Part shown: positions 7,112 to 19,226 of the stretch, piece after piece
Layout of the letters: the number at the start of each line of letters is the position of its first letter
How positions within the stretch are numbered: position 1 is the stretch's first letter
Origin: Cyanobium sp. Aljojuca 7A6
Lineage (GTDB): Bacteria > Cyanobacteriota > Cyanobacteriia > PCC-6307 > Cyanobiaceae
Reading direction: 5' to 3'
DNA length: 64,000 nt
Assembly (NCBI RefSeq): GCF_024346455.1
Contig: NZ_JAGQCY010000004.1
Location: 62,001 to 126,000, forward strand
Notes under the pieces: generated by a model
Told to the model about the DNA's origin: nothing
The model's database searches: none
Seen by the model: only the letters and a program-made list of their open reading frames with translations
Program-made: the position numbers and the translations under genes

Positions 7112-7996
7112 ATGGAGATCCGACGCCGGCCCCCCAACCCTTCGGTCCGGGTGGCCCACCTGGAATTCGGCACCCCCCATCCTGAGCAGAGCCCCCGCCA
7201 CATTCTTGAGGAGATCGTCTGGGAAAAGGACAGGGAGGTGACAGCGGCTCGCGAGCGGGTCAGCCTGGACACGCTGAAGCAACAGATCGCGGAACTGCCC
7301 CCCAGCCTGGATTTCTGCGCAGCCCTGCGGGCCAGCTGCCGCAAACCGGCAGTGATCGCTGAGATCAAGAAGGCCAGCCCCAGCAAGGGGGTGATCCGGG
7401 AGGATTTCGACCCCGTCGCCATCGCCAGGGGCTACCGGGACGGTGGCGCCAGCTGCCTGTCGGTGCTGACCGACAAGCGCTTCTTCCAGGGGGGCTTCGA
7501 TGTCCTGGTGGCCGTGCGCGACGCGGTGGCGCTGCCCCTGCTCTGCAAGGACTTCATCCTCAGCCCCTACCAGCTGTTCCAGGCCCGGGCCGCCGGGGCC
7601 GACGCGGCCCTGTTGATCGCGGCGATTCTCACCGACCAGGATCTGGCCTACCTGCTCAAGGTGGCCAGGGGCCTGGGGCTGGCGGTGCTGGTGGAGGTGC
7701 ACGACGCCACAGAGATGGAGCGGGTGCTGCAGCTGGAGGGCGTCAACCTGATCGGCATCAACAACCGCGATCTGGCCAGCTTCACGGTGGATCTGGCCAC
7801 CACCGAACAACTCATGGAACGCTTCGGCGAGCAGGTGCGTGCCTGTGGTGCCCTGCTGGTGAGCGAATCGGGCCTGTTCAGCCGCGCCGACCTCGACCGG
7901 GCCGTCGGTGCCGGTGCCGATGCGGTGCTGGTGGGAGAGGCCCTGATGCGGCAGGAGAACGTGACGGCGGCCCTGGAGACTCTGATCGGGGGCTGA
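7112..7996 (+). CDS. trpC: Indole-3-glycerol phosphate synthase TrpC
   Basis: Tryptophan biosynthesis: closes the indole ring of CdRP to give indole-3-glycerol phosphate. The (beta/alpha)8 barrel signatures are all present: [10 protein letters not shown] (catalytic Lys), [26 protein letters not shown] (second Lys), [14 protein letters not shown] and LVSESG with the phosphate-binding end [12 protein letters not shown]. Cyanobacterial TrpC proteins carry an N-terminal extension like the [10 protein letters not shown] seen here. A GTG at 7103 would add three residues and overlap lpd; I prefer the ATG at 7112. The gene ends 20 bp from the convergent ppk2. Confidence 0.95.
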
Positions 7997-8015
7997 GCCA
8001 GGCGCGCAGCAGGGA

Positions 8016-8918
8016 TCACTCCTTCTCCAGCAGGGCCCTGGCGGCATCGAGCTGGGTGCGGGCGTCCGGGCTCACTTCTGGGTAATGGAGGTGCAGGGAA
8101 TCGAGGGTTTCGATGATGGCGGCCGCCACGGCCATACGGGTGAACCACTTGTTGTCAGCCGGCACCACATACCAGGGGGCATGACGGCTGGAGGTGTGCC
8201 GGATGGTTTCGGTGTAAGCGTCCATGTAGTCCTCCCAGAAAGCCCGTTCCTTGATGTCGTTGGCGGAAAACTTCCAGTTCTTTTCCGGACGGTCGAGGCG
8301 TGCGAGAAAACGCTTGCGCTGCTCCTTCTTGGAGACGTTCAGAAAGAACTTTCGGACGATGATTCCATTGTTGCTCAGGTACTCTTCGTAATTTCTGATG
8401 TCGCGAAAGCGCTCTTTCCAGATGTCCTTCGTGATGCGATCGGGCGGAAGTGTCTGCCTGGTCAGCATCTCGGGATGGACTCGAACCACCAAGGTTTCCT
8501 CGTAATAGCTGCGGTTGAAGATGCCGATCCGCCCCCTTTCCGGCAGGGCATTGTTGGATCGCCAGAGAAAATCATGGTCCAGATCCACTGAGGAGGGCGC
8601 CTTGAAGGAGCTCACCTGGCATCCCTGGGGATTGACGCCACTCATCACGTGCTTGATGGTGCCGTCCTTGCCGGCCGCATCCATCGCCTGGAAGATCAAC
8701 AGCAGAGCATAGCGATCCTGGGCATAGAGCAGATCCTGGAAGTCCGCCAGCATCTGCACCCCCATCGTCAAGGCTTCCTGGGCCCGGTCCTTGTCTTTTT
8801 TGTCGAGATGCAGTGTGTCGCCAGGATCAAAATCCTTCAGCTGAAAACCGTCTCCATCCTCAATCCGGAAAGGTTTGGAGAAACTTCTGGCCCGCTCCAG
8901 GAAGTCCTTCTTGTCCAC
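8016..8918 (-). CDS. Polyphosphate kinase 2 family protein (PPK2)
   Basis: PPK2 enzymes move phosphate between polyphosphate and nucleotides, usually making NDP/NTP from NMP/NDP. The Walker A-like [16 protein letters not shown], the PPK2 signature FNRSYYEE and the lid region ([32 protein letters not shown]) are intact; about 300 residues is the usual single-domain length. I chose the GTG at 8916-8918 because AAGGGG lies 8 nt upstream; a GTG at 8945 would add nine residues. One 60-base row inside the gene is only 40% GC, against 77% in a row of neighbouring trpC, which suggests transfer. It is divergent from the V-ATPase operon. Substrate class (AMP, ADP or both) is not decided here. Confidence 0.9.
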
Positions 8919-8945
8919 GCGTCTTTCCCCTTGAAGATCTTCCAC

Positions 8946-9268
8946 TGATAGGTCGGCCCGCTGCGGCGACGGGGGCCATCAGCATCATTCGTAAAACGAG
9001 GCAACCTGACTTGGCTGAATGCCGAGGATCAGAGGGCGTCGAAGCGCCAATCGAACGCGTACAAAGAGATCTAGCTCGACGAAGCCTTGTGCCTACTTTA
9101 GCCACACCCTCTGGTACGGACCAACATGTCATAAAACTTATGAACATGGACTTTCCTCTGTCCTTGACTACAGTGACAGGGGAGAACAATCCGGCTTCAC
9201 GACGATCCTCCCTCAGCAGGTTCTGGCATTCCTTCGGCACCGGTCCTGATCCTCTGATCGCTCTTCCC
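8946..9268. promoter_or_regulatory. Divergent upstream region between ppk2 and the V-ATPase operon
   Basis: About 320 bp separate the two divergent genes. The stretch is AT-richer than its surroundings and contains an imperfect palindrome (9125-9148). No reading frame in it has family support, though the frame of the B subunit is open upstream with ATGs at 9140 and 9146. It presumably carries the promoters for ppk2 and the ATPase operon, but no consensus -35/-10 pair with proper spacing could be identified by eye. Confidence 0.4.
9125..9148. repeat. Imperfect inverted repeat in V-ATPase upstream region
   Basis: The arms CATGTCATAA and CTTATGAACATG are reverse complements apart from one extra base, separated by AA. 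A dyad of this size in an otherwise unstructured promoter region could be an operator or an mRNA hairpin. No matching regulator gene is adjacent, so this is a weak call. Confidence 0.35.
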
Positions 9269-10633
9269 ATGCCTGCGTCCCTGGTCAGTTATTCGAAGAT
9301 TCTCGAAATCGTCGGCGATATCCTCCGGGTCGAGGTCCCCGCTGATGCCAGCCAGAGGGAGGCGGCACCACGGTTCAACGATCTGGCTGTCGTGCAGAAC
9401 CGCAATGGCACCTCTTCGCTGGCGCAGGTGATTGCCCTGAAGCAGGATTCCGTGTCTTTGCAGGTGTTTCGAGGCACCAAGGGGGTGGCCACCGATTCTG
9501 CCGTGCATTTTCTTGGTCACCCGATGGAGGCCACCTACTCCACCAACATTCTGGGTCGGGTGTTTCGAGGCACGGGTGAGCCGATCGATGGCGGTCCAGG
9601 CCTTGAGGAGGATCCGAAGGTTCCGATCGGCGGGCCTTCCGTCAACCCGATGTGCCGCATTCTGGCCTCCAAGATGATCCGCACCAACGTGCCGATGATC
9701 GACGTGTTCAACTGTCTGGTGGAGAGCCAGAAGATCCCGATCTTTTCAGTCTCGGGGGAGCCCTTCAATGCCTTCCTGGCCCGCATTGGGATTCAGGCCG
9801 ATGCCGATGTGGTCGTGTTTGGGGGCCTGGGGCTGATCTTCGACGACTACTACGCGTTTCGCAAGACCTTTGAAGATGCCGGCGTTTTCGCACGCACCGT
9901 GATGTTCGTGAACCTGGCCTCCGATCCGATCGTGGAACGCTTGCTGATTCCGGACATGGCCTTGGCGGTGGCCGAGCGGTTTGCTGTGGAAGAGGGCAAG
10001 CGGGTGCTGGTGTTGCTCACGGACATGACCTCGTTTGCCGATGCCCTCAAGGAAATCAGCATCGCCATGGACCAGGTGCCTGCCAACCGCGGTTATCCAG
10101 GCGATCTCTATTCCCAGCTGGCCCGCCGCTATGAAAAGGCGGCTGATTACGCCAAGGGTGGCTCGGTGACGCTGCTCACGGTCACCACCATGCCAGGGGA
10201 CGACATCACCCATCCCGTGCCTGATAACACGGGATACATCACGGAAGGGCAGTTCTATCTGCACGATGGAGTCATTGATCCGTTCGGTTCCCTGTCCCGC
10301 CTCAAACAGAACGTGATCGGCAAGATCACCCGTGAGGACCATAACCAGATCATGAACACCTGCATCCGCCTCTATTCCGGTGCGCGGGATGCGGAGCAGA
10401 AGCAGGCCATGGCCTTTGAACTGTCCGATTACGACCAGCGCCTGATCAAATTTGGCGGACTGTTCAAAGCCAGATTCATGGATATCAATGTGGATATCTC
10501 CCTGGAGGATGCGCTGGATCTGGCCTGGACAACCCTGGCCGAGTGCTTCCAGGCCAGTGAGTTGCTGATGAAGCAGGAGCTGCTCGATAAGTACTTCCCC
10601 GGCGACACGCCGCCTCGCCCTCCCTCCGCGTAG
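9269..10633 (+). CDS. atpB: V/A-type ATPase subunit B (non-catalytic)
   Basis: Regulatory nucleotide-binding subunit of the V1/A1 head, alternating with subunit A. The 454-residue protein has the N-terminal beta-barrel (KILEIVGDILRVEV, ...VSLQVFRGTKGV), the conserved HPMEATYSTNILGRVFRGTGEPIDGGP, a degenerate P-loop position (FSVSGEPFNAFLARIG, no GK[TS]), LLTDMTSFADALKEIS and GYPGDLYSQLARRYEKA. Absence of the P-loop separates it from subunit A. The ATG at 9269 gives the family N-terminus; the frame extends upstream but without family features. It opens the operon, whereas in chlamydial-type operons B normally follows A. Confidence 0.95.
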   Translation: MPASLVSYSKILEIVGDILRVEVPADASQREAAPRFNDLAVVQNRNGTSSLAQVIALKQDSVSLQVFRGTKGVATDSAVHFLGHPMEATYSTNILGRVFRGTGEPIDGGPGLEEDPKVPIGGPSVNPMCRILASKMIRTNVPMIDVFNCLVESQKIPIFSVSGEPFNAFLARIGIQADADVVVFGGLGLIFDDYYAFRKTFEDAGVFARTVMFVNLASDPIVERLLIPDMALAVAERFAVEEGKRVLVLLTDMTSFADALKEISIAMDQVPANRGYPGDLYSQLARRYEKAADYAKGGSVTLLTVTTMPGDDITHPVPDNTGYITEGQFYLHDGVIDPFGSLSRLKQNVIGKITREDHNQIMNTCIRLYSGARDAEQKQAMAFELSDYDQRLIKFGGLFKARFMDINVDISLEDALDLAWTTLAECFQASELLMKQELLDKYFPGDTPPRPPSA

Positions 10634-10638
10634 TTCCC

Positions 10639-11241
10639 ATGGCCAGGCTCTCGCTCACCAAGGCCTCCCTGACGAAGGAGAAGTCCCTGCTGCGGACCTT
10701 TCAGGATGTCCTGCCATCGCTGGACATGAAGCGCCGCCAGATCGGTGCCGAACGGGAGAAGGCCCGCCGCCTGCTGGCCGAGGCCATGGAGAAGGCGGCG
10801 GCGATCGAGCCGGATGTGGCGGCCAGGTTGCCGATGGTCGCCAACACATCGATCGATCTGACGGATCTTGTGGCCGTTTCCAGTCTGGAGATCGGCGAAG
10901 AGAATCTGATGGGCACCCGGCTGCCGGTGCTTCGGAGCCTCGCCTTCCGGGTCATCCCCTATGGCGTGCTCACCAAGCCATTCTGGGTCGACGCCCTGGT
11001 CGTTGTTCTCCAGCAGGCCATGGAGCAGTCGATTCGGATCCAGGTGGCCAGGCGTCGCGTGGATGCACTGGAGCAGGCCGAGAGGATCGTGACGCAGCGT
11101 TATAACTTATTTGACAAGGTTCTGATTCCAAGAGCCAGACAGAACATTCGCAAAATCTCCATCTATCTGGCTGATGCGGAACGGGCCGGTGTGGTCAATT
11201 CCAAGATTGCCAAACGCAAGAAGGAGCACCAGGAGCCATGA
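10639..11241 (+). CDS. atpD: V/A-type ATPase subunit D (central stalk)
   Basis: Subunit D is the rotor shaft, the counterpart of gamma in F-ATPases, a long antiparallel coiled coil inside the A3B3 ring. The start MARLSLTKASLTKEKSLLRTF matches the family, the flanks are helical and charged (KRRQIGAEREKARRLLAEAM; ARRRVDALEQAERIV..RYNLFDKVLIPRARQNIRKISIYL), and 200 residues is normal. It begins five bases after the B stop and overlaps the I subunit start by ATGA, so it is clearly co-translated with both. Confidence 0.93.
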   Translation: MARLSLTKASLTKEKSLLRTFQDVLPSLDMKRRQIGAEREKARRLLAEAMEKAAAIEPDVAARLPMVANTSIDLTDLVAVSSLEIGEENLMGTRLPVLRSLAFRVIPYGVLTKPFWVDALVVVLQQAMEQSIRIQVARRRVDALEQAERIVTQRYNLFDKVLIPRARQNIRKISIYLADAERAGVVNSKIAKRKKEHQEP

Positions 11242-13046
11242 CGATCATCGCGCTCGCCAAAGTTTCGATCTTCGGTCTTGCGGCGGAGAAGCAGGCCGTG
11301 CTGGAAGGACTGCAAGCCCTGGGGTGTCTGCATCTGATTGACCTGGGAGCTGCGGAGGGCCCTGCTGATTTCAGCGCTCCCCAGCCGGCTGTCGAGGCCC
11401 GCGAGGCTTTGCGCTATCTGATGGATGTGCGCCAGCGTCGCTACCAGTTGAAGGTCGATCCCACCTTCCAGCTCGAGGCCGTGGTGGCCAAGACACTGGC
11501 GAACCGCTCACGCAAGCGGGCTGCCGAGGACAGAATCCTCAGCCTCCGCCACCATCTTGCTGAACTGGCCCCGTGGGGGAACTTCCGGCTGCCTGAACTG
11601 GGGGAGCTGGGTGGCCAGCGCCTTTGGTTCTACCGGGTTGCCCATCCCAAGCTGGAGCCCTTCCAACAGGCGCTTGCAGGGCTGGCACTGCCGTGGCAGC
11701 AGATCCATGCCAGCCCCAGGCATGCCTATGTGGTGCTGATCTCCGAGCAGGAACCGGACCAGAACCTGCTGCCGGTTCAGCGTGCCCATGTCGGTTCCGA
11801 GTCTCCGGAGGACCTCAGGGCTGAGCTCGACCAGGCCCATGTCGAACTTGATGACTGCGAGGCGGAGCACGAAGCCCTGAGCCGCTGGATCTTTCTGCTC
11901 TCGAAGCACCTGATCCGTGCCGATGAACAGGTGGCCCTCAGGCAGGCCAGCGAAAAAACCGCTGATCGGGGCCGCGTCTTTCAGGTGCAGGGCTGGATGC
12001 CGCGCCAGGACCTCCCCCAGCTCACGTCCTTTGTCCAGCGCATGGGGCTGGCCTCGTGGGCCGAAAGCCCGACCTCCGACGACACCCCTCCCACCTTGAT
12101 GACGAATCCGGATGTGCTGGCGGGCGGTGCAGATCTGGTGACGTTCTATGAGACGCCGGGTTATCGCGACTGGGATCCTTCTGTCGTGGTGTTCTTTTCC
12201 TTCGCCATCTTTTTCGCCATGATCCTGGCGGATGCAGGCTATGCCCTGGTGCTGGGGGTGCTGCTGGCGACGTTCTGGAAAAGGATGGGAACCAGGCCGT
12301 CCTCACGCCGGTTTCGCGTCCTGGCGGCGGTCGGTCTGCTGTTCTCACTTTTCTACGGGGTGCTGGCCGGGAGTTATTTCGGAGCTCCCCCCCCGAGTGG
12401 ATCCGTGCTGGCCCATCTTCAGGTTCTGAATCTGGACGATTTCACTGTGATGATGAAGGTCTCACTGGTGGTGGGTGCCCTGCATCTGATCCTGGCCAAT
12501 GGGATCGTGGCGTTGCGCGGTGTGACGCTCGCCGAGCACGCCAAGCCCATCGGCTGGATCGCCATCATTCTCGCGGGCCTCAGCCTCTACCTCGGGGCGG
12601 GCACCGCGGCAGGCCGTGATCTGGGCCTTGGCCTGGGTAGCGGCGGGCTGCTCACCATCCTGCTGCTGAGCAGCGAGCGTCGCCTCGATTCGCTTGGTTC
12701 CCTGCTGTTGCGACTGTTTGATGGGCTTGCCTCACTGGCTGAACTCTCCAAACTTTTTGGAGACGTGATGAGTTATCTGCGTCTGTTTGCCCTAGGATTG
12801 GCCAGTGCCTCTTTGGCACTGACGTTCAATCAGTTGGCCGGCGAAATTTACCGCTCCGATGTCCCCCTTGCGGTGGTCATTTCGCTGCTGATCCTGATCC
12901 TGGGTCATAGCATCAATCTGTTGCTTGCCATCATCAGCGGATTTGTCCACGGCCTGCGGCTCAACTTCATTGAGTTTTTCAACTGGAGCCTCAGCGAGGA
13001 AGGCTATCCCTTCGCACCCTTCAGCAAAAAGGAGACGGCATTGTGA
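11238..13046 (+). CDS. atpI: V/A-type ATPase subunit I (a subunit, stator ion channel)
   Basis: Membrane stator subunit of the Vo/Ao sector. The N-terminal half (about 1-310) is cytoplasmic and links to the peripheral stalks; the C-terminal half holds membrane helices from about residue 315 (VVVFFSFAIFFAMILADAGYALVLG). The helix VMSYLRLFALGLASASLALTFNQLAG contains the conserved arginine (R515) essential for ion release from the rotor ring in the family. 602 residues is on the short side, typical of the bacterial chlamydial-type enzyme. Overlaps D and K by four bases each (ATGA and GTGA). Confidence 0.94.
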   Translation: MTIIALAKVSIFGLAAEKQAVLEGLQALGCLHLIDLGAAEGPADFSAPQPAVEAREALRYLMDVRQRRYQLKVDPTFQLEAVVAKTLANRSRKRAAEDRILSLRHHLAELAPWGNFRLPELGELGGQRLWFYRVAHPKLEPFQQALAGLALPWQQIHASPRHAYVVLISEQEPDQNLLPVQRAHVGSESPEDLRAELDQAHVELDDCEAEHEALSRWIFLLSKHLIRADEQVALRQASEKTADRGRVFQVQGWMPRQDLPQLTSFVQRMGLASWAESPTSDDTPPTLMTNPDVLAGGADLVTFYETPGYRDWDPSVVVFFSFAIFFAMILADAGYALVLGVLLATFWKRMGTRPSSRRFRVLAAVGLLFSLFYGVLAGSYFGAPPPSGSVLAHLQVLNLDDFTVMMKVSLVVGALHLILANGIVALRGVTLAEHAKPIGWIAIILAGLSLYLGAGTAAGRDLGLGLGSGGLLTILLLSSERRLDSLGSLLLRLFDGLASLAELSKLFGDVMSYLRLFALGLASASLALTFNQLAGEIYRSDVPLAVVISLLILILGHSINLLLAIISGFVHGLRLNFIEFFNWSLSEEGYPFAPFSKKETAL

Positions 13047-13495
13047 CCAACGACACATCCATTTTGGTCCTTGGCTGGATTGGCATCTATGCGCCGGTGG
13101 CCTTGGCGGCCATCGGCGCCTCCATCGGTTGCACCACGGCGGGTCAGGCGGCGATCGGCGCCATGATGGAGGTCAGCAGCGGCTACGGACGTTTCGTCGG
13201 CCTGTCCGCGCTGCCGTCGTCGATGTCGATCTACGGCATTGTCGTGATGTTCATCCTCAATCGACCGGTGACCCCGGCGAATTCCGGCGGGCTCTTCGGC
13301 ATCGGACTGCTCTCGGGACTGGCGTTCCTGATGGCGGCGATCTACCAGGGGTTGTGCTGCGCCTCCGCCATTTCCGGCTCCAAGGCCAAGCCCGAGATCT
13401 TCGGGCTTTCCCTGGCGCCGGCCGCGATCGTTGAGGGCTTCGCCGTGTTTGCCTTCGTGTTTGCCTTGGTGGCGGCCGGAGGGATTCCCAAGTAG
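13043..13495 (+). CDS. atpK: V/A-type ATPase subunit K (c-ring proteolipid, 4 TM)
   Basis: Rotor-ring proteolipid built from two fused helical hairpins (150 aa, four membrane helices). Only the second hairpin has the ion-binding carboxylate: E131 in PAAIVEGFAVF. The equivalent position in the first hairpin is I63, so there is one ion site per protomer, as in Enterococcus NtpK and eukaryotic V-type rings. Aligned to NtpK from memory, ligands L61, T64, Q110, E139 and Y68 correspond to L57, S60, Q102, E131 and Y64, but Q65 is M61. Ion preference is therefore open. Starts with GTG overlapping the I stop. An 85-bp spacer follows. Confidence 0.93.
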   Translation: MTNDTSILVLGWIGIYAPVALAAIGASIGCTTAGQAAIGAMMEVSSGYGRFVGLSALPSSMSIYGIVVMFILNRPVTPANSGGLFGIGLLSGLAFLMAAIYQGLCCASAISGSKAKPEIFGLSLAPAAIVEGFAVFAFVFALVAAGGIPK

Positions 13496-13580
13496 GGCTC
13501 CCTGAAGGGCACCCCCGCGTCTCTGGACGCCTGCCTTCGCCATCTCTTTTCCGTCGTTCCTCCCCAGCCGGGCAGATCCC

Positions 13581-14282
13581 ATGGCCAACCCGAAGAAGCT
13601 CCGGCACGACACTCCCCTGGCGGTGGCCTCTGGCGTGGAGGACTTGATTGCGCGCCTGCGCGATCAGGGCGTCGAGAAGGGACGCGCCGAGGCCGAGGGC
13701 CTGCTGCACCAGGCCCAGGCGAAGGCGGCGACCCTGCTCGCCGAAGCTGAGGCTCAGGCCAGGCAGATCGTCGATCGGGCCAGGAAGGAGGCCGAGTCGC
13801 TCCAGACCTCAGGGCAGCAGGCCCTGGAACTGGCCTTCCGCGATGCCAACCTGGCCCTGAAGGCCCAGCTCAGCGATCGCTTCACCGGTGAGGTGCGCCA
13901 GCTCGTTGGCGAAGAACAGGAGAAGCAGGAAATTCTGGAGCGGATGATCCTGGAGATCGTCGGCACACTCCGCCCGGAAGCCGACCAGTCACAGCAGGTT
14001 GAGGTGCTGCTGCCACGCCGGGTGGCCGGCCTGGCCGAGCTCAGCCAGCACCCGGAGGAGCTGGAGCAGGGCATCCTCAGCCGCTTCGTGCGCCTCACCG
14101 CCCGGGGCCTGCTGCGGCAGGGGGTCAGCTTCGGTGTTTCGAAGGGACCCCAGGCCGGGTTGAAGTTGCGGCTGGTGGACCGTGATGTGGTGCTCGACCT
14201 GACGGATGCGGCGATCGCCCAATCCCTGCTGGCCCACCTGCAACCCCGGTTCCGCGCTCTGCTGGAGGGGGTGGTGAAGTGA
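13581..14282 (+). CDS. atpE: V/A-type ATPase subunit E (peripheral stalk)
   Basis: Peripheral stalk subunit tying the A3B3 head to subunit I. It has a long charged N-terminal helix (about residues 20-105, rich in A, E, K, Q, R) and a globular C-terminal domain (VRLTARGLLRQGVSFGVS...LVDRDVVLDLTDAAIAQSLLAHLQPRF) typical of the family; 233 aa. In chlamydial-type operons E is the first gene; here it follows K after the only sizeable spacer in the operon (13496-13580), which could hold a secondary promoter. No G/H stalk partner gene is recognisable. Confidence 0.85.
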   Translation: MANPKKLRHDTPLAVASGVEDLIARLRDQGVEKGRAEAEGLLHQAQAKAATLLAEAEAQARQIVDRARKEAESLQTSGQQALELAFRDANLALKAQLSDRFTGEVRQLVGEEQEKQEILERMILEIVGTLRPEADQSQQVEVLLPRRVAGLAELSQHPEELEQGILSRFVRLTARGLLRQGVSFGVSKGPQAGLKLRLVDRDVVLDLTDAAIAQSLLAHLQPRFRALLEGVVK

Positions 14283-14289
14283 GCGCCCC

Positions 14290-14973
14290 ATGAAGTACGT
14301 CGTGCTGATGGCCAGCCTGCCGCCGCTCGGGTCGCTGTTGGAAGCCGCGACGCCACCGATTTCCAGACTCAAGCTGGAAAGCCGATTGGGTCTGCTGGAG
14401 GCCACCGATCTGCATACGCTCGAACAGATCGCCAACCTGATCGCCTGGCCGTCCCAGCCACTGGAGCGCACCGATGCGGCCTTCATTGTTGAGGCCCATC
14501 GCTTCTTGGCGGCCAACCGCAATCCGACGCTGCGGAGTCTGGTGACGCAGCGCCTGGACATGCGCACGATCGTGGCGGCGTTTCGCCGCCGGCGTCGGGG
14601 GGAAGCCCAGCCGCCCACCGGTGAGGTCTGGGGATTCGGTGAATGGGTGGGCTTGATCGAGCGCAACTGGAGTGCACCGACATTCAAGCTTGAGGTGATC
14701 TTTCCTTGGGTCAGGCAGGCTCACGACCTGCTGGAGGAGGATGACCTGATTGGCTTCGAGAAGTTGCAGTTTTCTGTTGTCTGGGCCATGTTGAACCGCC
14801 TTGGGGCCGGCCATGCGTTCGATTTTGAGGCGCTGATCATTTATCTGGCGCGCTGGAGTCTGGTCAGCCGTTGGTCATGCTACAAAGGTGAGACGGCTGT
14901 CGTTCGGTTTCGAGAGCTCGTCGATGCGGGCCTTGCCAATCACAGAGAACTCTTTTCGGGTGTAGCTCAATGA
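14290..14973 (+). CDS. DUF2764-like V-ATPase accessory subunit (candidate C-like subunit)
   Basis: A 227-residue soluble protein starting MKYVVLMASLPPLG, which resembles the start of the DUF2764 family found only inside chlamydial/Bacteroidetes-type V-ATPase operons between E and A, exactly the position seen here. The helical remainder (LHTLEQIANLIAWP, EWVGLIERNWSAPTF, EALIIYLARWSLVSRW) would suit a subunit C/d-like central-stalk cap, which these operons otherwise lack. That role is inference. It starts 7 bp after E and overlaps A by ATGA. Confidence 0.75.
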   Translation: MKYVVLMASLPPLGSLLEAATPPISRLKLESRLGLLEATDLHTLEQIANLIAWPSQPLERTDAAFIVEAHRFLAANRNPTLRSLVTQRLDMRTIVAAFRRRRRGEAQPPTGEVWGFGEWVGLIERNWSAPTFKLEVIFPWVRQAHDLLEEDDLIGFEKLQFSVVWAMLNRLGAGHAFDFEALIIYLARWSLVSRWSCYKGETAVVRFRELVDAGLANHRELFSGVAQ

Positions 14974-16817
14974 ACAGCAGCATTGAGTCCCTGGCTGAGT
15001 TCAATCCCGCCAGCGTTGTTGCTGTGCAGGATGATCTCGTCACGATCCAGATGGCGGAGAGCAAGCCCCGGCCTCTGCTCAAGAATGAGGTGATCTACAT
15101 CTGTCTGCAGCGCCGTAGTGGAGATCGCCAGGAAAAGCTGAAAGCCGAAGTGTTGCGTGTGCGAGGGAGGCTGGCCGATGCCCAGGTCTTTGAAAGCACC
15201 AAGGGTGTCGGCATTGGCGATCCGGTCGAGCAGACGGGCGAGCAACTCTCCGTCACCCTCGGCCCTGGCCTGCTGAGTCAAGTCTATGACGGACTGCAGA
15301 ACCCCCTGGCCCAGCTGGCCGCCGGCTATGGCACGTTTCTGCCCCGTGGTGCCGATGTGTCGCCCCTGGATACGGAAAAGAAGTGGTCGTTTCAGCCCAG
15401 GGCCAAGATCGGTGACACCCTCCATGCCGGGGATGTGATCGGTACCGTTCAGGAGGGTCGCTTCACCCACAAGATCATGGTTCCCTTTGATCAGCAGGGG
15501 GTGACCACCCTCGACTGGATTCAGCAGGGAAGTTTCACGATCGACACCGCCGTGGCCCGCATCCGGGATGGCAGTGGTGCCCCCCGCTCACTCACGCTGA
15601 CGCAGCAGTGGCCGGTGCGGCGCGCCCTCCCCCAGGCACTGCTGGAATCAAACCTCTGCGAACGGCTTTATCCGCAGGAGCCGATGATCACCACCCAGCG
15701 GATCATCGACACCTTTCTGCCCATCGCCCGTGGTGGTACCGGCTGCATCCCGGGCCCTTTCGGCGCTGGCAAGACCGTGCTCCAGAACCTGATCTCGCGC
15801 CACTCCGATGTGGACATCGTGCTGGTGGTGGCCTGCGGGGAGCGGGCGGGGGAAGTGGTCGAAACCATCACTGAATTCCCCAAGCTTTCTGACCCGAAGA
15901 CTGGTGGATCGCTGATGGATCGCACCATCATCATCTGCAACACCTCCTCGATGCCGGTGGCGGCCAGAGAGGCCTCCATCTACACCGGTCTCACCCTGGG
16001 TGAGTATTACCGCCAGATGGGATACAACGTGCTTCTGATTGCCGACTCCACCTCGCGCTGGGCCCAGGCGATGCGGGAAACCTCCGGTCGGCTGGAGGAG
16101 ATTCCTGGTGAAGAGGCGTTTCCCGCTTATCTCGATTCCTCGATCAAGAGCGTCTATGAGCGGGCCGGCATCATCCGCACCAGCGACGGCTCCGTCGGCA
16201 GCCTCACCATGATCGGGACAGTGTCGCCGGCGGGGGGCAATTTCGAGGAGCCGGTCACCCAATGCACCTTGGGCACCGTCAAGGCGTTCCTCGGACTGAG
16301 TGCGGAGCGGGCTTACAAGCGCTTCTATCCAGCCGTCGACATCCTGCTCTCCTGGACGCGCTATTTCCAGCAGCTCGAGGGTTGGTTCTCCCAGCATCTT
16401 TCACCGGAGTGGGTGGGTCGCGTCGCCCAGATGAATGGGCTGCTCAAGGAGGGTGATCGGGTTGGCCAGATGATTCAGGTGACCGGCGAGGAAGGCGTCA
16501 GCATGGAGGACTTCATCGTTTTTCAGAAAGCTCTGTTTCTGGACATGGTGTATCTGCAGCAGGATGCCTTTGATGCCGTCGACTCCACCACCCCCCTGGA
16601 ACGGCAGAAGACCTCCTTCGATCTGGTCTTCGATCTGCTGCACGGTGACCACACCTTCGCCGACAAGAAGGCCGCCAGGGACTATTACACCCAACTCACG
16701 GGTCTGTACCGGAACCTGAACTACGCCGCCTCCGGTTCGCCCACCTACAAGAGCTATCTGCAGCAGATCCAGGCCCTCTCCGGAGCCCCTAGGGCGATCC
16801 CAGTCGCGACGCCTTGA
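14970..16817 (+). CDS. atpA: V/A-type ATPase subunit A (catalytic)
   Basis: Catalytic subunit of the head. Residues 262-269 form the P-loop GPFGAGKT, preceded by FLPIARGGTGCIPG; further hallmarks are ACGERAGEVVETITEFP (catalytic Glu in GER), NTSSMPVAAREASIYTG, and ADSTSRWAQAMRE. The inserted non-homologous region of A subunits lies between about 110 and 200. 615 residues fit. Last gene of the operon here, although A usually precedes B. Its last 29 bases overlap the convergent methyltransferase gene. Either ATP synthesis or ATP-driven pumping is possible; a normal F-type enzyme is expected elsewhere in a cyanobacterial genome. Confidence 0.96.
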   Translation: MNSSIESLAEFNPASVVAVQDDLVTIQMAESKPRPLLKNEVIYICLQRRSGDRQEKLKAEVLRVRGRLADAQVFESTKGVGIGDPVEQTGEQLSVTLGPGLLSQVYDGLQNPLAQLAAGYGTFLPRGADVSPLDTEKKWSFQPRAKIGDTLHAGDVIGTVQEGRFTHKIMVPFDQQGVTTLDWIQQGSFTIDTAVARIRDGSGAPRSLTLTQQWPVRRALPQALLESNLCERLYPQEPMITTQRIIDTFLPIARGGTGCIPGPFGAGKTVLQNLISRHSDVDIVLVVACGERAGEVVETITEFPKLSDPKTGGSLMDRTIIICNTSSMPVAAREASIYTGLTLGEYYRQMGYNVLLIADSTSRWAQAMRETSGRLEEIPGEEAFPAYLDSSIKSVYERAGIIRTSDGSVGSLTMIGTVSPAGGNFEEPVTQCTLGTVKAFLGLSAERAYKRFYPAVDILLSWTRYFQQLEGWFSQHLSPEWVGRVAQMNGLLKEGDRVGQMIQVTGEEGVSMEDFIVFQKALFLDMVYLQQDAFDAVDSTTPLERQKTSFDLVFDLLHGDHTFADKKAARDYYTQLTGLYRNLNYAASGSPTYKSYLQQIQALSGAPRAIPVATP

Positions 16818-17550
16818 TCGTCAGTGGCCAGTGAAGGCGCCGTGGCGTCTGCGCCTTCCCCCAGACGGCGGCCAGGGCCGGACGAAGCCAGTCGATGGGG
16901 TCGCTGCCCAGGGCGGCCCGATAGCGGGCGCTGGCCGACCAGCTGGAGCCGTAGCCGAGCAGTTGCTCCAGGCTCCAGGCGGCTTCCATGGCGAACGACG
17001 GGGCCGGGAGGGCCGCGAAGGGCAGCACCAGGTCGCGGTAGCCGGTTTCCACCTGGGCTTTCTCGGCAGGCCAGTAGGGACCGACGATGTCGCCGTAGAA
17101 GTGCTGCAGCAGGGCGTCGGTCGCCTCCCCGTCCAGGTGGGGGATGCCGTAGCTCCAGACGGCCAGAACGCCTCCGGGGCGCAGCACCCGCGCCACTTCC
17201 GCGAAGAAGCGGGGTCGATCGAACCAATGCAGGGCCTGGGCCACTGTGACCAGATCGATGCTGCCCGCCTCCAGACCGGAGCCCTCCGCCGCCGCCAGTC
17301 GGTAGTGCACCCGGGGATGGGGGCTGGCGGCCTCGAGCTGGGCGGCGCTGGCGTCGGAGGCCACCACCTCGCTGAAGTGGGCGGCCAGGGCCACGGCAGC
17401 CTGACCCGTACCGGTGGCGCAGTCCCAGGCCCGTTGCCGGGCGGGAGCCACCGCGGCCAGCCAGTCGAACAGGGGTGGCGGGTAAGTGGGACGGAAGTGG
17501 GCGTAGGCCCCCGAAACGGAGCCGAAGTGATCGATGAAGGCTTCGCTCAT
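16789..17550 (-). CDS. Class I SAM-dependent methyltransferase
   Basis: A 253-residue Rossmann-fold methyltransferase. The SAM site motif I WDCATGTGQAAVALAAHF (about 42-59) and the acidic end of strand 2 (VVASDAS) are clear, followed by DLVTVAQALHWFD and EVARVLRPGGVLAVWSYG, the Methyltransf_11 pattern also seen in trans-aconitate-methyltransferase-like proteins. The substrate is unknown. It converges on subunit A with a 29-bp overlap of coding ends. GC is back to the level of the core genome (47 of 60 bases in one row), unlike its downstream neighbour. Confidence 0.85.
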   Translation of the reverse strand: MSEAFIDHFGSVSGAYAHFRPTYPPPLFDWLAAVAPARQRAWDCATGTGQAAVALAAHFSEVVASDASAAQLEAASPHPRVHYRLAAAEGSGLEAGSIDLVTVAQALHWFDRPRFFAEVARVLRPGGVLAVWSYGIPHLDGEATDALLQHFYGDIVGPYWPAEKAQVETGYRDLVLPFAALPAPSFAMEAAWSLEQLLGYGSSWSASARYRAALGSDPIDWLRPALAAVWGKAQTPRRLHWPLTIKASRLGSP

Positions 17551-17581
17551 TACAGGGGCTGAATGGGGGAATCAGAAGCCA

Positions 17582-18490
17582 TCAAGTGCCTGAAGAGCCT
17601 CCCTGCTTAAGGCGACGTGCCACGGCCTTGAGATCCTGCGTGAGGCAGGAGAGCCTCGTCCTTGTCGTCATGGAGATCGGCGTCTCGTAGCCCAGAGCCT
17701 CGCGCAATCTGTGCAGTGACTGTGAGTGCACGGCTTCACGAAAGACATCTGTGGTGAAGGGGTGGCGCTCCATGATCAGGGGGCGTTCGGCCTTGCGGCC
17801 ACTGGCTCCAGAGCCCATCTCCGCGCGGGAAATCTGGATCGGTTGTTCAGCCACTTCGAGACGGGTCGCAGTGGTCATGCCAAGAACAGATGAGCGGATT
17901 CGATCTTTCTCCCGCTGCTCATGCAAGGCGAGTGTCTGCATGTGAAGGTCGTTCAGTGGATGGCTGTGGTTCTTCCAGGCCAGCCAGCTATTGAAATAGA
18001 AATCTGCGTAGTCATCCAGGCGCTTGAACGCTTTCGCCATCGAGGAGAAGGAGCGGCGCATGGCCAGCCAGGTGTCGAACGGGTCGCGATGGGTGTAGAA
18101 GCAGGTGTGGGGAATCTGACGGCTGTCCAGGATCTCAACCAGAGCTGGAGTGGCTGAGCCATCAGGGAAATGTCGTAGTCTCCAGCCCTCACCAAAGCTG
18201 TGGTCGCGGATCATCAAGACCGAGGCGGCGTCGTTGGCGAGGAAGGTGTCGACGAGCAACTCAAGCCGTCTTGAGTATTCCTTAAGCGCCTCTTGTCTGG
18301 AAAATAATTCCAGAGCTCGAACCCGATGCAGGGGATCCTCCGGGAAGTATGTCGTTGGTGAATTGTAGGAGTAAGGGTTGGTTTCACCGGTGAGCCAGGC
18401 GTTAGCGTCCAGCGCTTTGGCGATGTAGTGAAAGAGATAGGTCCCCGCCGAACACGGAAGATTGGCCACCAGGACAATTCGTTTGTCCAT
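17582..18490 (-). CDS. Sulfotransferase-like P-loop protein
   Basis: The start ATG at 18488-18490 has AGAAAGAGAG just upstream and gives MDKRIVLVANLPCSAGTYLF, a 5'-phosphosulfate-binding-like loop. A second segment YTHRDPFDTWLAMRRSFSS resembles the R(x7)S element that binds the 3'-phosphate of PAPS in sulfotransferases. The rest is weakly typical, so the acceptor is unknown and a non-PAPS P-loop enzyme is possible; 302 aa. Two 60-base rows have 31 and 33 G+C against 47 in the adjacent methyltransferase, suggesting lateral acquisition, as is common for cell-surface modification genes. Confidence 0.65.
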   Translation of the reverse strand: MDKRIVLVANLPCSAGTYLFHYIAKALDANAWLTGETNPYSYNSPTTYFPEDPLHRVRALELFSRQEALKEYSRRLELLVDTFLANDAASVLMIRDHSFGEGWRLRHFPDGSATPALVEILDSRQIPHTCFYTHRDPFDTWLAMRRSFSSMAKAFKRLDDYADFYFNSWLAWKNHSHPLNDLHMQTLALHEQREKDRIRSSVLGMTTATRLEVAEQPIQISRAEMGSGASGRKAERPLIMERHPFTTDVFREAVHSQSLHRLREALGYETPISMTTRTRLSCLTQDLKAVARRLKQGGSSGT

Positions 18491-18565
18491 ACTCTCTTTC
18501 TGATTTGTTGGGATAATAGGCTGCAAACCTGCTGGCCATGCTGAGTTTCTTCAGAGGCTGGCTAC

Positions 18566-18592
18566 AAAAAGCCCCCGCCGTTGGGCGAGGGC
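18566..18592 (-). terminator. Rho-independent terminator of rpsD
   Basis: Read on the minus strand, GCCCTCGCC pairs with GGCGGGGGC (one G-U pair) around loop CAAC, followed directly by TTTTT. It lies 26 bp past the rpsD stop codon and is the clearest intrinsic terminator in the window. Confidence 0.9.
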
Positions 18593-18617
18593 TGGGAGGG
18601 TTTGCTGTGGAAGCCGT

Positions 18618-19226
18618 TCAGACCTTGCGGCTGTAGAACTCCACCACCAGCAGTTCGTTGATCTCTAGGGCGACCCATTCGCGCTCAATGCGGCCGCCCA
18701 CCTTGGCGGTCATCTTGGCCTTGTCGAACTCCAGGTGGGGAGGGATGTTGGCCAGGCCGGGGAAGGCCATGTTGGCTTCGGCAAGGGCCTTGCTGCACTT
18801 GCGCTCGCGGATGGCGACCACGTCGCCGGCCCTGCACTGGAAGCTGGGGATGTCCACAACGCGGCCGTTCACGGTCACGTGGCCATGGTTCACCAACTGG
18901 CGGGCGCCGGGGACGGTGGGACCGAGGCCGAGGCGGAAGCAGATGTTGTCGAGTCGGCCTTCGAGCAGCTTGAGCAGGTTGGTTCCGGTGGAACCCTCCT
19001 GGGCACGGGCTTTCTTCACGTAGCGCACTAGCTGACGTTCGGAAATGCCGTAGTTGAAACGCAGTTTCTGTTTTTCTTCGAGACGGATCGCGTATTCGGA
19101 GCGCTTGCGACGGGCTTGGCCGTGCTGACCGGGGGGATAAGACCGTTTGGCGGCCTTACGGGTGAGACCGGGAAGGTCCCCCAAGCGCCGCGTGATCCTC
19201 AGGCGAGGGCCGCGGTAGCGAGACAT
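18618..19226 (-). CDS. rpsD: 30S ribosomal protein S4
   Basis: Primary 16S rRNA-binding protein of the small subunit, which in bacteria may also control translation of its own operon. 202 residues starting [21 protein letters not shown]; the S4 RNA-binding domain is seen in [39 protein letters not shown]. This short form without zinc-binding cysteines in the N-terminus is usual in cyanobacteria and plastids. It is monocistronic, ended by the terminator at 18566-18592, and divergent from yidD. Confidence 0.97.

Follow-up and report, generated by a model that had tools for sequence, protein, structure and literature searches.

V-type ATPases are not new to the picocyanobacteria. Their presence in Synechococcus and Cyanobium of subcluster 5.2 was reported in 2020 and 2022 (PMC7434838, PMC9361551): Black Sea Synechococcus (BSS), WH5701, BO8801, PCC7336 and PCC7001 carry such enzymes, there called enigmatic (PMC7434838), and a strain survey found them in 9 of 67 freshwater, 5 of 17 brackish and no marine strains, with a putative polyphosphate kinase 2 (PPK2) in 20 of 57 strains of this subcluster (SC5.2), no link to the ATPase being drawn (PMC9361551). 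The accessible parts of the two papers deal with presence only; the link to PPK2, the permuted gene order and the nature of the protein called X below go unmentioned in them. The stretch considered here (the window: 64,000 nucleotides of Cyanobium sp. Aljojuca 7A6, contig NZ_JAGQCY010000004.1) holds an intact V/A-type ATPase operon, B-D-I-K-E-X-A, on one strand at 9269-16817. It is the same system in the same group, and Synechococcus sp. BO 8801 (L097; L and G numbers designate loci and genomes) has the same operon at the same site, so that the presence of a V-type ATPase in such a genome, pointed out in an earlier note on this DNA, was already in print. What can be added by observation is that cyanobacteria and Proteobacteria share one permuted operon, and that enzymes able to form ATP from stored or fermentative phosphate are found next to it again and again; what can be added by modeling is a predicted V-ATPase C/d fold for the DUF2764-like protein X. 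We propose, giving the idea somewhat better than an even chance, that the operon encodes a pump for H+ (possibly Na+) that is driven by ATP and has a dedicated substrate-level system to regenerate that ATP.

Three other described systems serve for comparison. The Bacteroidota V-type enzyme (Bacteroides fragilis P207, PMC10790697; Parabacteroides, L229) is likewise encoded by seven genes with DUF2764 between E and A; its DUF2764 protein has 292 amino acids vs 227 for window X, its A subunit is 44% identical to window A, and for the B. fragilis enzyme the accessible portion of PMC10790697 predicts Na+ transport and leaves DUF2764 unexplained. The Na+ V-ATPase of Enterococcus hirae (NtpK, 2bl2; I, 8wci) shares with the window a double-hairpin K with one carboxylate and the channel arginine; NtpK has Gln65 and Thr64 where window K has Met61 and Ser60. 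The V/A-ATPase of Thermus and Rubrobacter has a subunit C (PF01992) that X resembles in predicted fold: X sits between E and A, and in that position, beside E and before A, Rubrobacter has its PF01992 C gene together with F; subunit C is about 100 residues longer than X, and an F gene is found there but not here.

The operon and its direct flanks are laid out as follows:

8016-8945, minus strand: polyphosphate kinase 2 (PPK2_rel_1 / ADP-polyphosphate phosphotransferase type), divergent from the operon
8946-9268, no strand assigned: intergenic region common to PPK2 and the operon, 323 bases
9269-10633, plus strand: V-type ATPase subunit B, non-catalytic (NF002555, 720.1 bits, cut-off 431)
10639-11241, plus strand: subunit D, central shaft (PF01813, E 3.4e-29; NF002565, 190.2 bits, cut-off 189)
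11238-13046, plus strand: subunit I, stator half-channel (PF01496, E 2.5e-17; Arg515)
13043-13495, plus strand: subunit K, ring, double hairpin (PF00137 in two stretches, 2.7e-19; NF007200, 181.8 bits, cut-off 108)
13581-14282, plus strand: subunit E, peripheral stalk, assigned from operon position and NF002424 (E 7e-19; 68.2 bits, below the cut-off of 241)
14290-14973, plus strand: X, DUF2764-like, predicted C/d subunit (predicted fold, profile match)
14970-16817, plus strand: subunit A, catalytic (PF00006, E 1.9e-64; NF003220, 757.8 bits, cut-off 470)
16789-17550, minus strand: methyltransferase, overlapping the end of A by 29 bases

The earlier note had described a complete, functional-looking V/A-type operon with overlapping frames and its key residues in place, and that description has stood up: all seven reading frames lie within 9269-16817 as it had them, three of the six joints (D-I, I-K and X-A) are four-base overlaps (the other gaps are 5, 85 and 7 bases), and the Pfam and NCBIfam matches together with the key residues make a complete set that is probably functional. 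Subunit A has its P-loop at residue 262 and GER at 290, and aligns to solved A subunits; B matches PF00006 (E 2.1e-50) and lacks the P-loop pattern. Arg515 of I sits in SYLRLFALG and falls on an arginine in the alignment to the I subunit of E. hirae (chain 8wci_P, E 9.9e-28), and the ring carboxylate of K, Glu131, is present in the alignment to NtpK 2bl2. Subunit E has no Pfam match. Standard C (PF01992) and F (PF01990) subunits find no match at E <= 1 in the window's own genome; beyond the seven, no gene of at least 80 amino acids on the operon strand was assigned, and no G family was searched for. The F-type enzyme on which, as the earlier note had it, cyanobacteria normally rely was looked for elsewhere in the genome: its alpha and beta subunits are encoded on contig C23 (833.6 and 817.1 bits, above the atpA and atpD NCBIfam cut-offs), which makes the V/A-type operon a second rotary ATPase. 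The Na+ F-type N-ATPase was tried as an identity for the operon and rejected (B scores 79.9 against 752 bits with TIGR03305 and 73.4 against 750.5 with TIGR03324, A scores 92 against 752 with TIGR03305).

How widespread is the arrangement? Genome contigs were scanned with A as the query (the best 80 of 273 relatives were taken), and 42 sequence clusters, each with a representative locus, were drawn from these 80 loci. The order B-D-I-K-E-X-A is found in 70 of the 80, in cyanobacteria and Proteobacteria; the other ten run into contig ends or, in L137, a run of N, and because the run of N precedes it, the A gene standing alone in L137 is no evidence for a solitary A gene. In the one Bacteroidota locus opened (L229) the order is E-DUF2764-A-B-D-I-K, of which B-D-I-K-E-X-A is a rotation.

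The gene at 8016-8945, which the earlier note does not mention, is a PPK2 by family and subfamily models (PF03976, E 5.2e-65; TIGR03709, 388.7 bits over a cut-off of 247.2; with NF042973 it reaches 410 bits, below the cut-off of 450), and so a predicted polyphosphate kinase. PPK2 stands beside the operon in all eight genomes of the genus that carry the operon, and an intact PPK2 (at least 62% identity) is present in 10 of the 34 operon-free genomes of the genus (Fisher p 4e-4, uncorrected for relatedness). When the open reading frames (ORFs) of the 42 representative loci were clustered, overlapping shadow ORFs being set aside by eye, PPK2, in six loci, was the sole non-operon family seen in more than three. 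In 6 of the 42 clusters it is found within the operon or no more than 3 kb from it, vs 0.27 expected from its density in 40 genomes (105 matches in 191.8 Mb), for a Poisson probability of 4e-7 that was computed after the family had been seen. The six genes fall into three subfamilies: the L095 cluster, with the window, has PPK2_rel_1, L104, L123, L152 and (truncated) L112 have the PPK2_P_aer type, L142 has a polyphosphate:AMP phosphotransferase, and the gene is placed upstream, downstream or between B and D. Three subfamilies in differing positions make a single inherited accident unlikely. On the tree of A proteins the PPK2 label requires 7 changes by parsimony, unlabelled rows counting as "no PPK2" although some of their contigs are cut. 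No description of a V-ATPase/PPK2 neighbourhood was found in the accessible portion of the open-access literature searched.

Elsewhere, other enzymes of substrate-level ATP formation are found near the operon. (A technical note: these were counted by tblastn on the 80 loci, with queries for PPK2, carbamate kinase, the acetate-kinase family and the dikinase; neighbour ORFs were chosen by codon usage, and Pfam was applied to 50 of them, a few being shadows, rather than to all. Because tblastn used four query families, other ATP makers could be overlooked.) In 4 of the 42 clusters carbamate kinase is no farther than about 8 kb from the operon. It is upstream of B in L132, L135 and L136, and 5.4 kb (L157) and 7.9 kb (L162) past A, where it comes last in a same-strand arginine deiminase set; NCBIfam confirms the enzyme for L132, L136 and L228. 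Two of 13 matched plasmid records have the present ATPase type, and both have carbamate kinase near the operon: on the Tateyamaria plasmid it overlaps the start of B, and on that of Qingshengfaniella it belongs to a divergent arginine deiminase set. An order-wide search around Ruegeria found the present type in 19 of 341 genomes, 12 of the 19 with carbamate kinase (E <= 1e-30), which in four (G727, G827, G912 and G726, two of which may be the genomes of L157 and L162) is on the same strand and less than 10 kb from A. In L144 only about 0.1 kb separates B from the end of a preceding pyruvate-phosphate dikinase (TIGR01828, 1270.4 bits, cut-off 843.45); in L156 (BD1-7 clade bacterium) the end of A overlaps the start of an acetate-kinase-family ORF, and a BMC-domain (microcompartment shell) gene comes next (11793-13494 for the pair). 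One or other of these four enzyme types is present in 17 of the 80 loci and 12 of the 42 clusters. Isoamylase (L106, L118), 2-oxoglutarate dehydrogenase E1 (L116), transporters, porins and other neighbours were not counted as ATP makers.

The kinase linkage is real and it is not universal, and a number of points weigh against reading it as the power supply of a pump. 1) In the window PPK2 is divergent from the operon and not co-transcribed with it, and a sigma-70 scan of 7900-18700 returned no promoter-like site vs 1.7 expected. 2) In three Cyanobium loci (L098, L099, L101) the operon is elsewhere and no PPK2 stands alongside; in an order-wide search around Thiocapsa none of the 42 genomes with this ATPase type has PPK2 near A among the matches listed, the nearest being 35 kb away (the count omits G648 and G624, with partial A matches, and, for PPK2 genes of two domains, the match to the second). 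3) By tblastn, 30 of the 42 clusters have none of the four enzyme types in the flanks examined, only 29 clusters having a member with more than 1.5 kb on both sides; some of the 30 are negative because the contig is cut. In the Ruegeria cluster, 15 of the 17 loci have no nearby carbamate kinase in the flanks examined, and in the remaining two the gene is 5.4 and 7.9 kb beyond A. 4) The acetate-kinase-family protein of L156 falls below the NCBIfam cut-offs and, since a BMC-domain gene follows, may belong to a microcompartment. 5) The theme "ATP-making enzyme" is post hoc, formed once the neighbours were known. 6) These kinases are reversible, and their linkage is consequently no proof of direction.

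From the gene set, the key residues and the linkage as they stand we infer the assembly, the subunit roles, the direction, the ion and what the linkage means, in the following way. A3B3 would hydrolyse ATP, D would serve as the shaft and X as a C/d-type socket coupling the shaft to the K ring; I would bear the half-channels and E would be the peripheral stalk, in a complex with no F or C subunit recognisable by sequence. The ATPase would most likely run as an ATP-driven ion pump, with PPK2 most likely regenerating its ATP from ADP and polyphosphate, and with ATP so supplied the membrane gradient or pH balance could be kept while neither photosynthesis nor respiration is running. The pumps of other lineages would be paired with carbamate kinase and the arginine deiminase pathway, with pyruvate-phosphate dikinase, or with the acetate-kinase-family protein. 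A pump with its own ATP supply is the best reading that we have of three things at once: why an organism with an F-type synthase has an extra ATPase, why these neighbours occur, and why they vary. The PPK2 link offers a testable answer to the question of what the enigmatic V-ATPase does: it would be a polyphosphate-powered pump for times when light and respiration fail.

Might operon and PPK2 simply be accessory cargo thrown together by chance, and the kinase link functionally meaningless? The distribution is certainly patchy. A full-length A gene is present in 7 of 42 genomes of the genus (G000, G001, G004, G006, G010, G014, G016), G013 has an operon divided over two contigs, and G003 retains only a relic, a 21-26-residue piece of A; across the phylum, 3 of 386 evenly sampled genomes have an A match at E <= 1e-100, in keeping with the earlier note's view that the enzyme is not standard in cyanobacteria (nor is the operon universal among them). 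The earlier note had the operon sitting between trpC and rpsD, inserted in a conserved region. Both genes do flank the region, and the direct neighbours are PPK2 on one side, with trpC beyond it, and the methyltransferase on the other, with one further gene and then rpsD beyond. Eight operon-free genomes were opened at the trpC-rpsD site: trpC directly adjoins the methyltransferase in five (G012, G015, G019, G032, G005), G011 has trpC and rpsD with no methyltransferase between and was not counted as an empty site, and G002 and G003 have, as read from their ORFs, ABC-exporter-like genes and a TetR-like regulator in the trpC-methyltransferase interval, which because of this exporter-like set is better called a variable cargo site. 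Insertion is supported by the five directly adjoining pairs. Base composition also differs: guanine-plus-cytosine (GC) content is 0.611 for PPK2 plus operon vs 0.687 in the remaining window, and PPK2 itself (GC 0.569, third-position GC, GC3, 0.742) is like B, D, I, X and A and unlike most of the measured flanking genes. (A scar of subunit A in the empty site of G015 was considered and set aside, its similarity being explicable by the overlapping end of the methyltransferase.)

That no such enzyme turned up in most clusters also speaks for chance. Against it stand the differing PPK2 subfamilies in differing places and the six observed vs 0.27 expected, and the fact that PPK2 persists with the operon in a second arrangement. 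In G001 (L177, L195) a PPK2 piece remains beside trpC, and the intact operon with PPK2 is on another contig, PPK2 there following A and convergent with it, that is, on the side opposite to that in the window. In G003 (L178, 6296-6576) two short C-terminal PPK2 pieces and a short A piece lie beside trpC; judged by their sequence, they are the remains of a lost PPK2/V-ATPase copy. Chance association deserves to be taken seriously, and we think it unlikely.

Running the proposed pump backwards gives a second alternative, which we also regard as unlikely: the enzyme would mainly be an auxiliary ATP synthase on an H+ or Na+ gradient, and PPK2 would bank the ATP as polyphosphate. The PPK2 reaction is, after all, reversible. 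According to the accessible part of PMC10790697, there are bacterial V-types that make ATP, and the related Bacteroides enzyme has been suggested to act as a synthase using sodium motive force. However, an F-type synthase is already present, carbamate kinase and pyruvate-phosphate dikinase as neighbours indicate supply of ATP rather than storage, PPK2 preferentially degrades polyphosphate (as stated in the available part of PMC7078480), and window K lacks one Na+ ligand.

This last point can be read from the site table. The ion-site residues of K are Leu57, Ser60, Met61, Tyr64, Gln102 and Glu131, and their NtpK counterparts are Leu61, Thr64, Gln65, Tyr68, Gln110 and Glu139; the full Na+ ligand set of NtpK (Leu61, Thr64, Gln65, Gln110, Glu139) is incomplete in K, which has Met61 in place of Gln65 and Ser60 in place of Thr64. 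Na+ enzymes are polar at position 65 and H+ enzymes have Leu, Ile or Val there, and Met belongs to neither of these residue lists, so far as the accessible part of PMC2359735 gives them. With one Na+ ligand replaced by Met, the sequence favours H+ over Na+ as the transported ion. In an alignment of 37 K sequences (A2, the window replacing L095) the Met61 column has Gln in 15, Met in 12 and Phe, Gly or Val in 10, and because of this variation the operon family may be mixed in ion specificity. The switching among Gln, Met, Phe, Gly and Val in this column is also a possible natural series for ion specificity.

A third possibility, which strikes us as quite improbable, is that the pump acidifies a polyphosphate compartment (an acidocalcisome-like body) and that PPK2 is there for polyphosphate turnover. 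Candidatus Venteria (L120) does have the permuted operon, and PMC4853749, in its accessible portion, discusses for Thiomargarita a V-ATPase-acidified vacuole of marine Beggiatoa and possible acidic polyphosphate compartments; that portion also mentions another Beggiatoa, whose polyphosphate granules are not acidic. Around the L120 operon tblastn found no PPK2, and the carbamate kinase neighbours do not fit a compartment. We know, moreover, of no vacuole in picocyanobacteria. That the contig is a contaminant or a misassembly, for which only the GC below that of the flanks speaks, is practically out of the question and has been ruled out by the position common to relatives: position and order are the same in G014, G004, G006, G010, G016 and G013 (the same-site relatives include Cyanobium sp. 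Cruz-8D1, Aphanothece saxicola, Synechococcus sp. BO 8801 and Cyanobium sp. N.Huapi 1H5), a relic lies at the same place in G003, and the host genome (3.13 Mb in 34 contigs, completeness 100) has a contamination value of 0.58.

The candidate for the socket between shaft and ring is X. X is DUF2764-like at the margin: it scores 21.9 bits with PF10962, just below the Pfam cut-off of 24.1, and is matched by hhalign to the Parabacteroides DUF2764 protein with a probability of 94.7 (E 5.7e-8, 91 columns). The AlphaFold2 model of window X (pLDDT, the model's per-residue confidence, 91.1) was built from 38 sequences (alignment A1, 38 of 41, the fragments L102, L123 and L146 dropped and the window replacing L095). 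VIA-align, run on the top Foldseek chains of the model, superposes it on 6ly9_M (Z 10.8, root-mean-square deviation (rmsd) 4.5, 195 residues), 8eas_d (Z 10.7, rmsd 4.9, 196 residues) and 8ywt_M (Z 9.8, rmsd 5.0, 198 residues); the next row has Z 5.5. A second model, of the L156 protein (30% identical to window X, pLDDT 84.9), finds 8ywt_M (Z 10.3, rmsd 3.8, 192 residues), 1v9m (Z 9.6, rmsd 5.1, 193 residues) and 7uw9_d (Z 8.1, rmsd 4.5, 184 residues), with the next unrelated row at 4.0. Above Z 8, then, both models matched V-ATPase C/d chains only, chains M and d being taken as C/d from their letters and lengths, and 1v9m naming its subunit outright ("C subunit of V-type ATPase from Thermus thermophilus"). 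The L156 model is a partial replicate, since its alignment (A4, 26 sequences) overlaps A1 in most rows.

Other searches tell against the assignment or are silent. Foldseek with the X model gives no match at E <= 0.001, and helical proteins can reach VIA-align Z values up to about 13 through a common arrangement. There is no significant sequence similarity between X and Rubrobacter C by hhalign (probability 1.0 percent), and a search of the PDB with the A1 profile produced one match, to a ribosomal protein at E 1.7, which is not convincing. Homology to C/d is nevertheless favoured, because this is the sole subunit to stand out, twice, and across nearly the whole chain; on these models X very probably represents the C/d socket, in a version about 100 residues shorter. 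The predicted fold would explain DUF2764, left without explanation for Bacteroides in the accessible text of PMC10790697, and would supply the missing connector of a widespread minimal V-ATPase.

Where does the operon come from? The earlier note had called it chlamydial/Bacteroidetes-type. In one sense this holds, as B, D and K pass the NCBIfam DUF2764-type models (NF002555, NF002565, NF007200); in another it does not, for the gene order is rotated and A stands apart in the tree. The tree is a quick maximum-likelihood one of 55 A proteins, with one Bacteroidota sequence and with chlamydial sequences not included. It unites 17 cyanobacterial rows and one Myxococcota metagenome-assembled genome as one set (SH-aLRT 98) and eight picocyanobacterial rows together (SH-aLRT 99), and it places window A in a cyanobacterial set inside a cyanobacterial-proteobacterial group, apart from the single Bacteroidota sequence; the root is unsure because the two outgroup rows are very long branches. 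Rotated order and tree placement together give no indication of a recent Bacteroidota source. One can go further and think of a distinct V-ATPase subfamily (permuted, with a shortened C/d-like X and no recognisable F) that would be a dedicated "dark" ion pump, tied by its gene neighbourhood to substrate-level ATP generators able to stand in for one another (PPK2, carbamate kinase with arginine deiminase, pyruvate-phosphate dikinase or an acetate-kinase-family enzyme). Such a pump would convert polyphosphate (or arginine) to a transmembrane ion gradient with no electron transport. That more sweeping version is tentative, and we would sooner expect it to need revision than to survive whole.

Several smaller observations may be recorded. 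The A genes of L168 (Phormidium willei) and L152 (Mycobacterium sp. KBS0706) group with proteobacterial ones, and these may be contaminated or misnamed records. The order to which G450 belongs has many genomes with a more distant V/A-type A (about 44% identity), some of them alongside the present type; G450 itself has three A matches. The exporter-like set at the trpC-methyltransferase interval spans 6633-10556 in L179 (G002) and 6630-11150 in L178 (G003), with a redoxin-family gene also present in G003. The intergenic region between PPK2 and B has no nameable motif in an alignment of 6 genomes, in which it is partially conserved. The gene between the methyltransferase and rpsD (17582-18526) has no NCBIfam match, and among relatives it is variously present, absent or broken.

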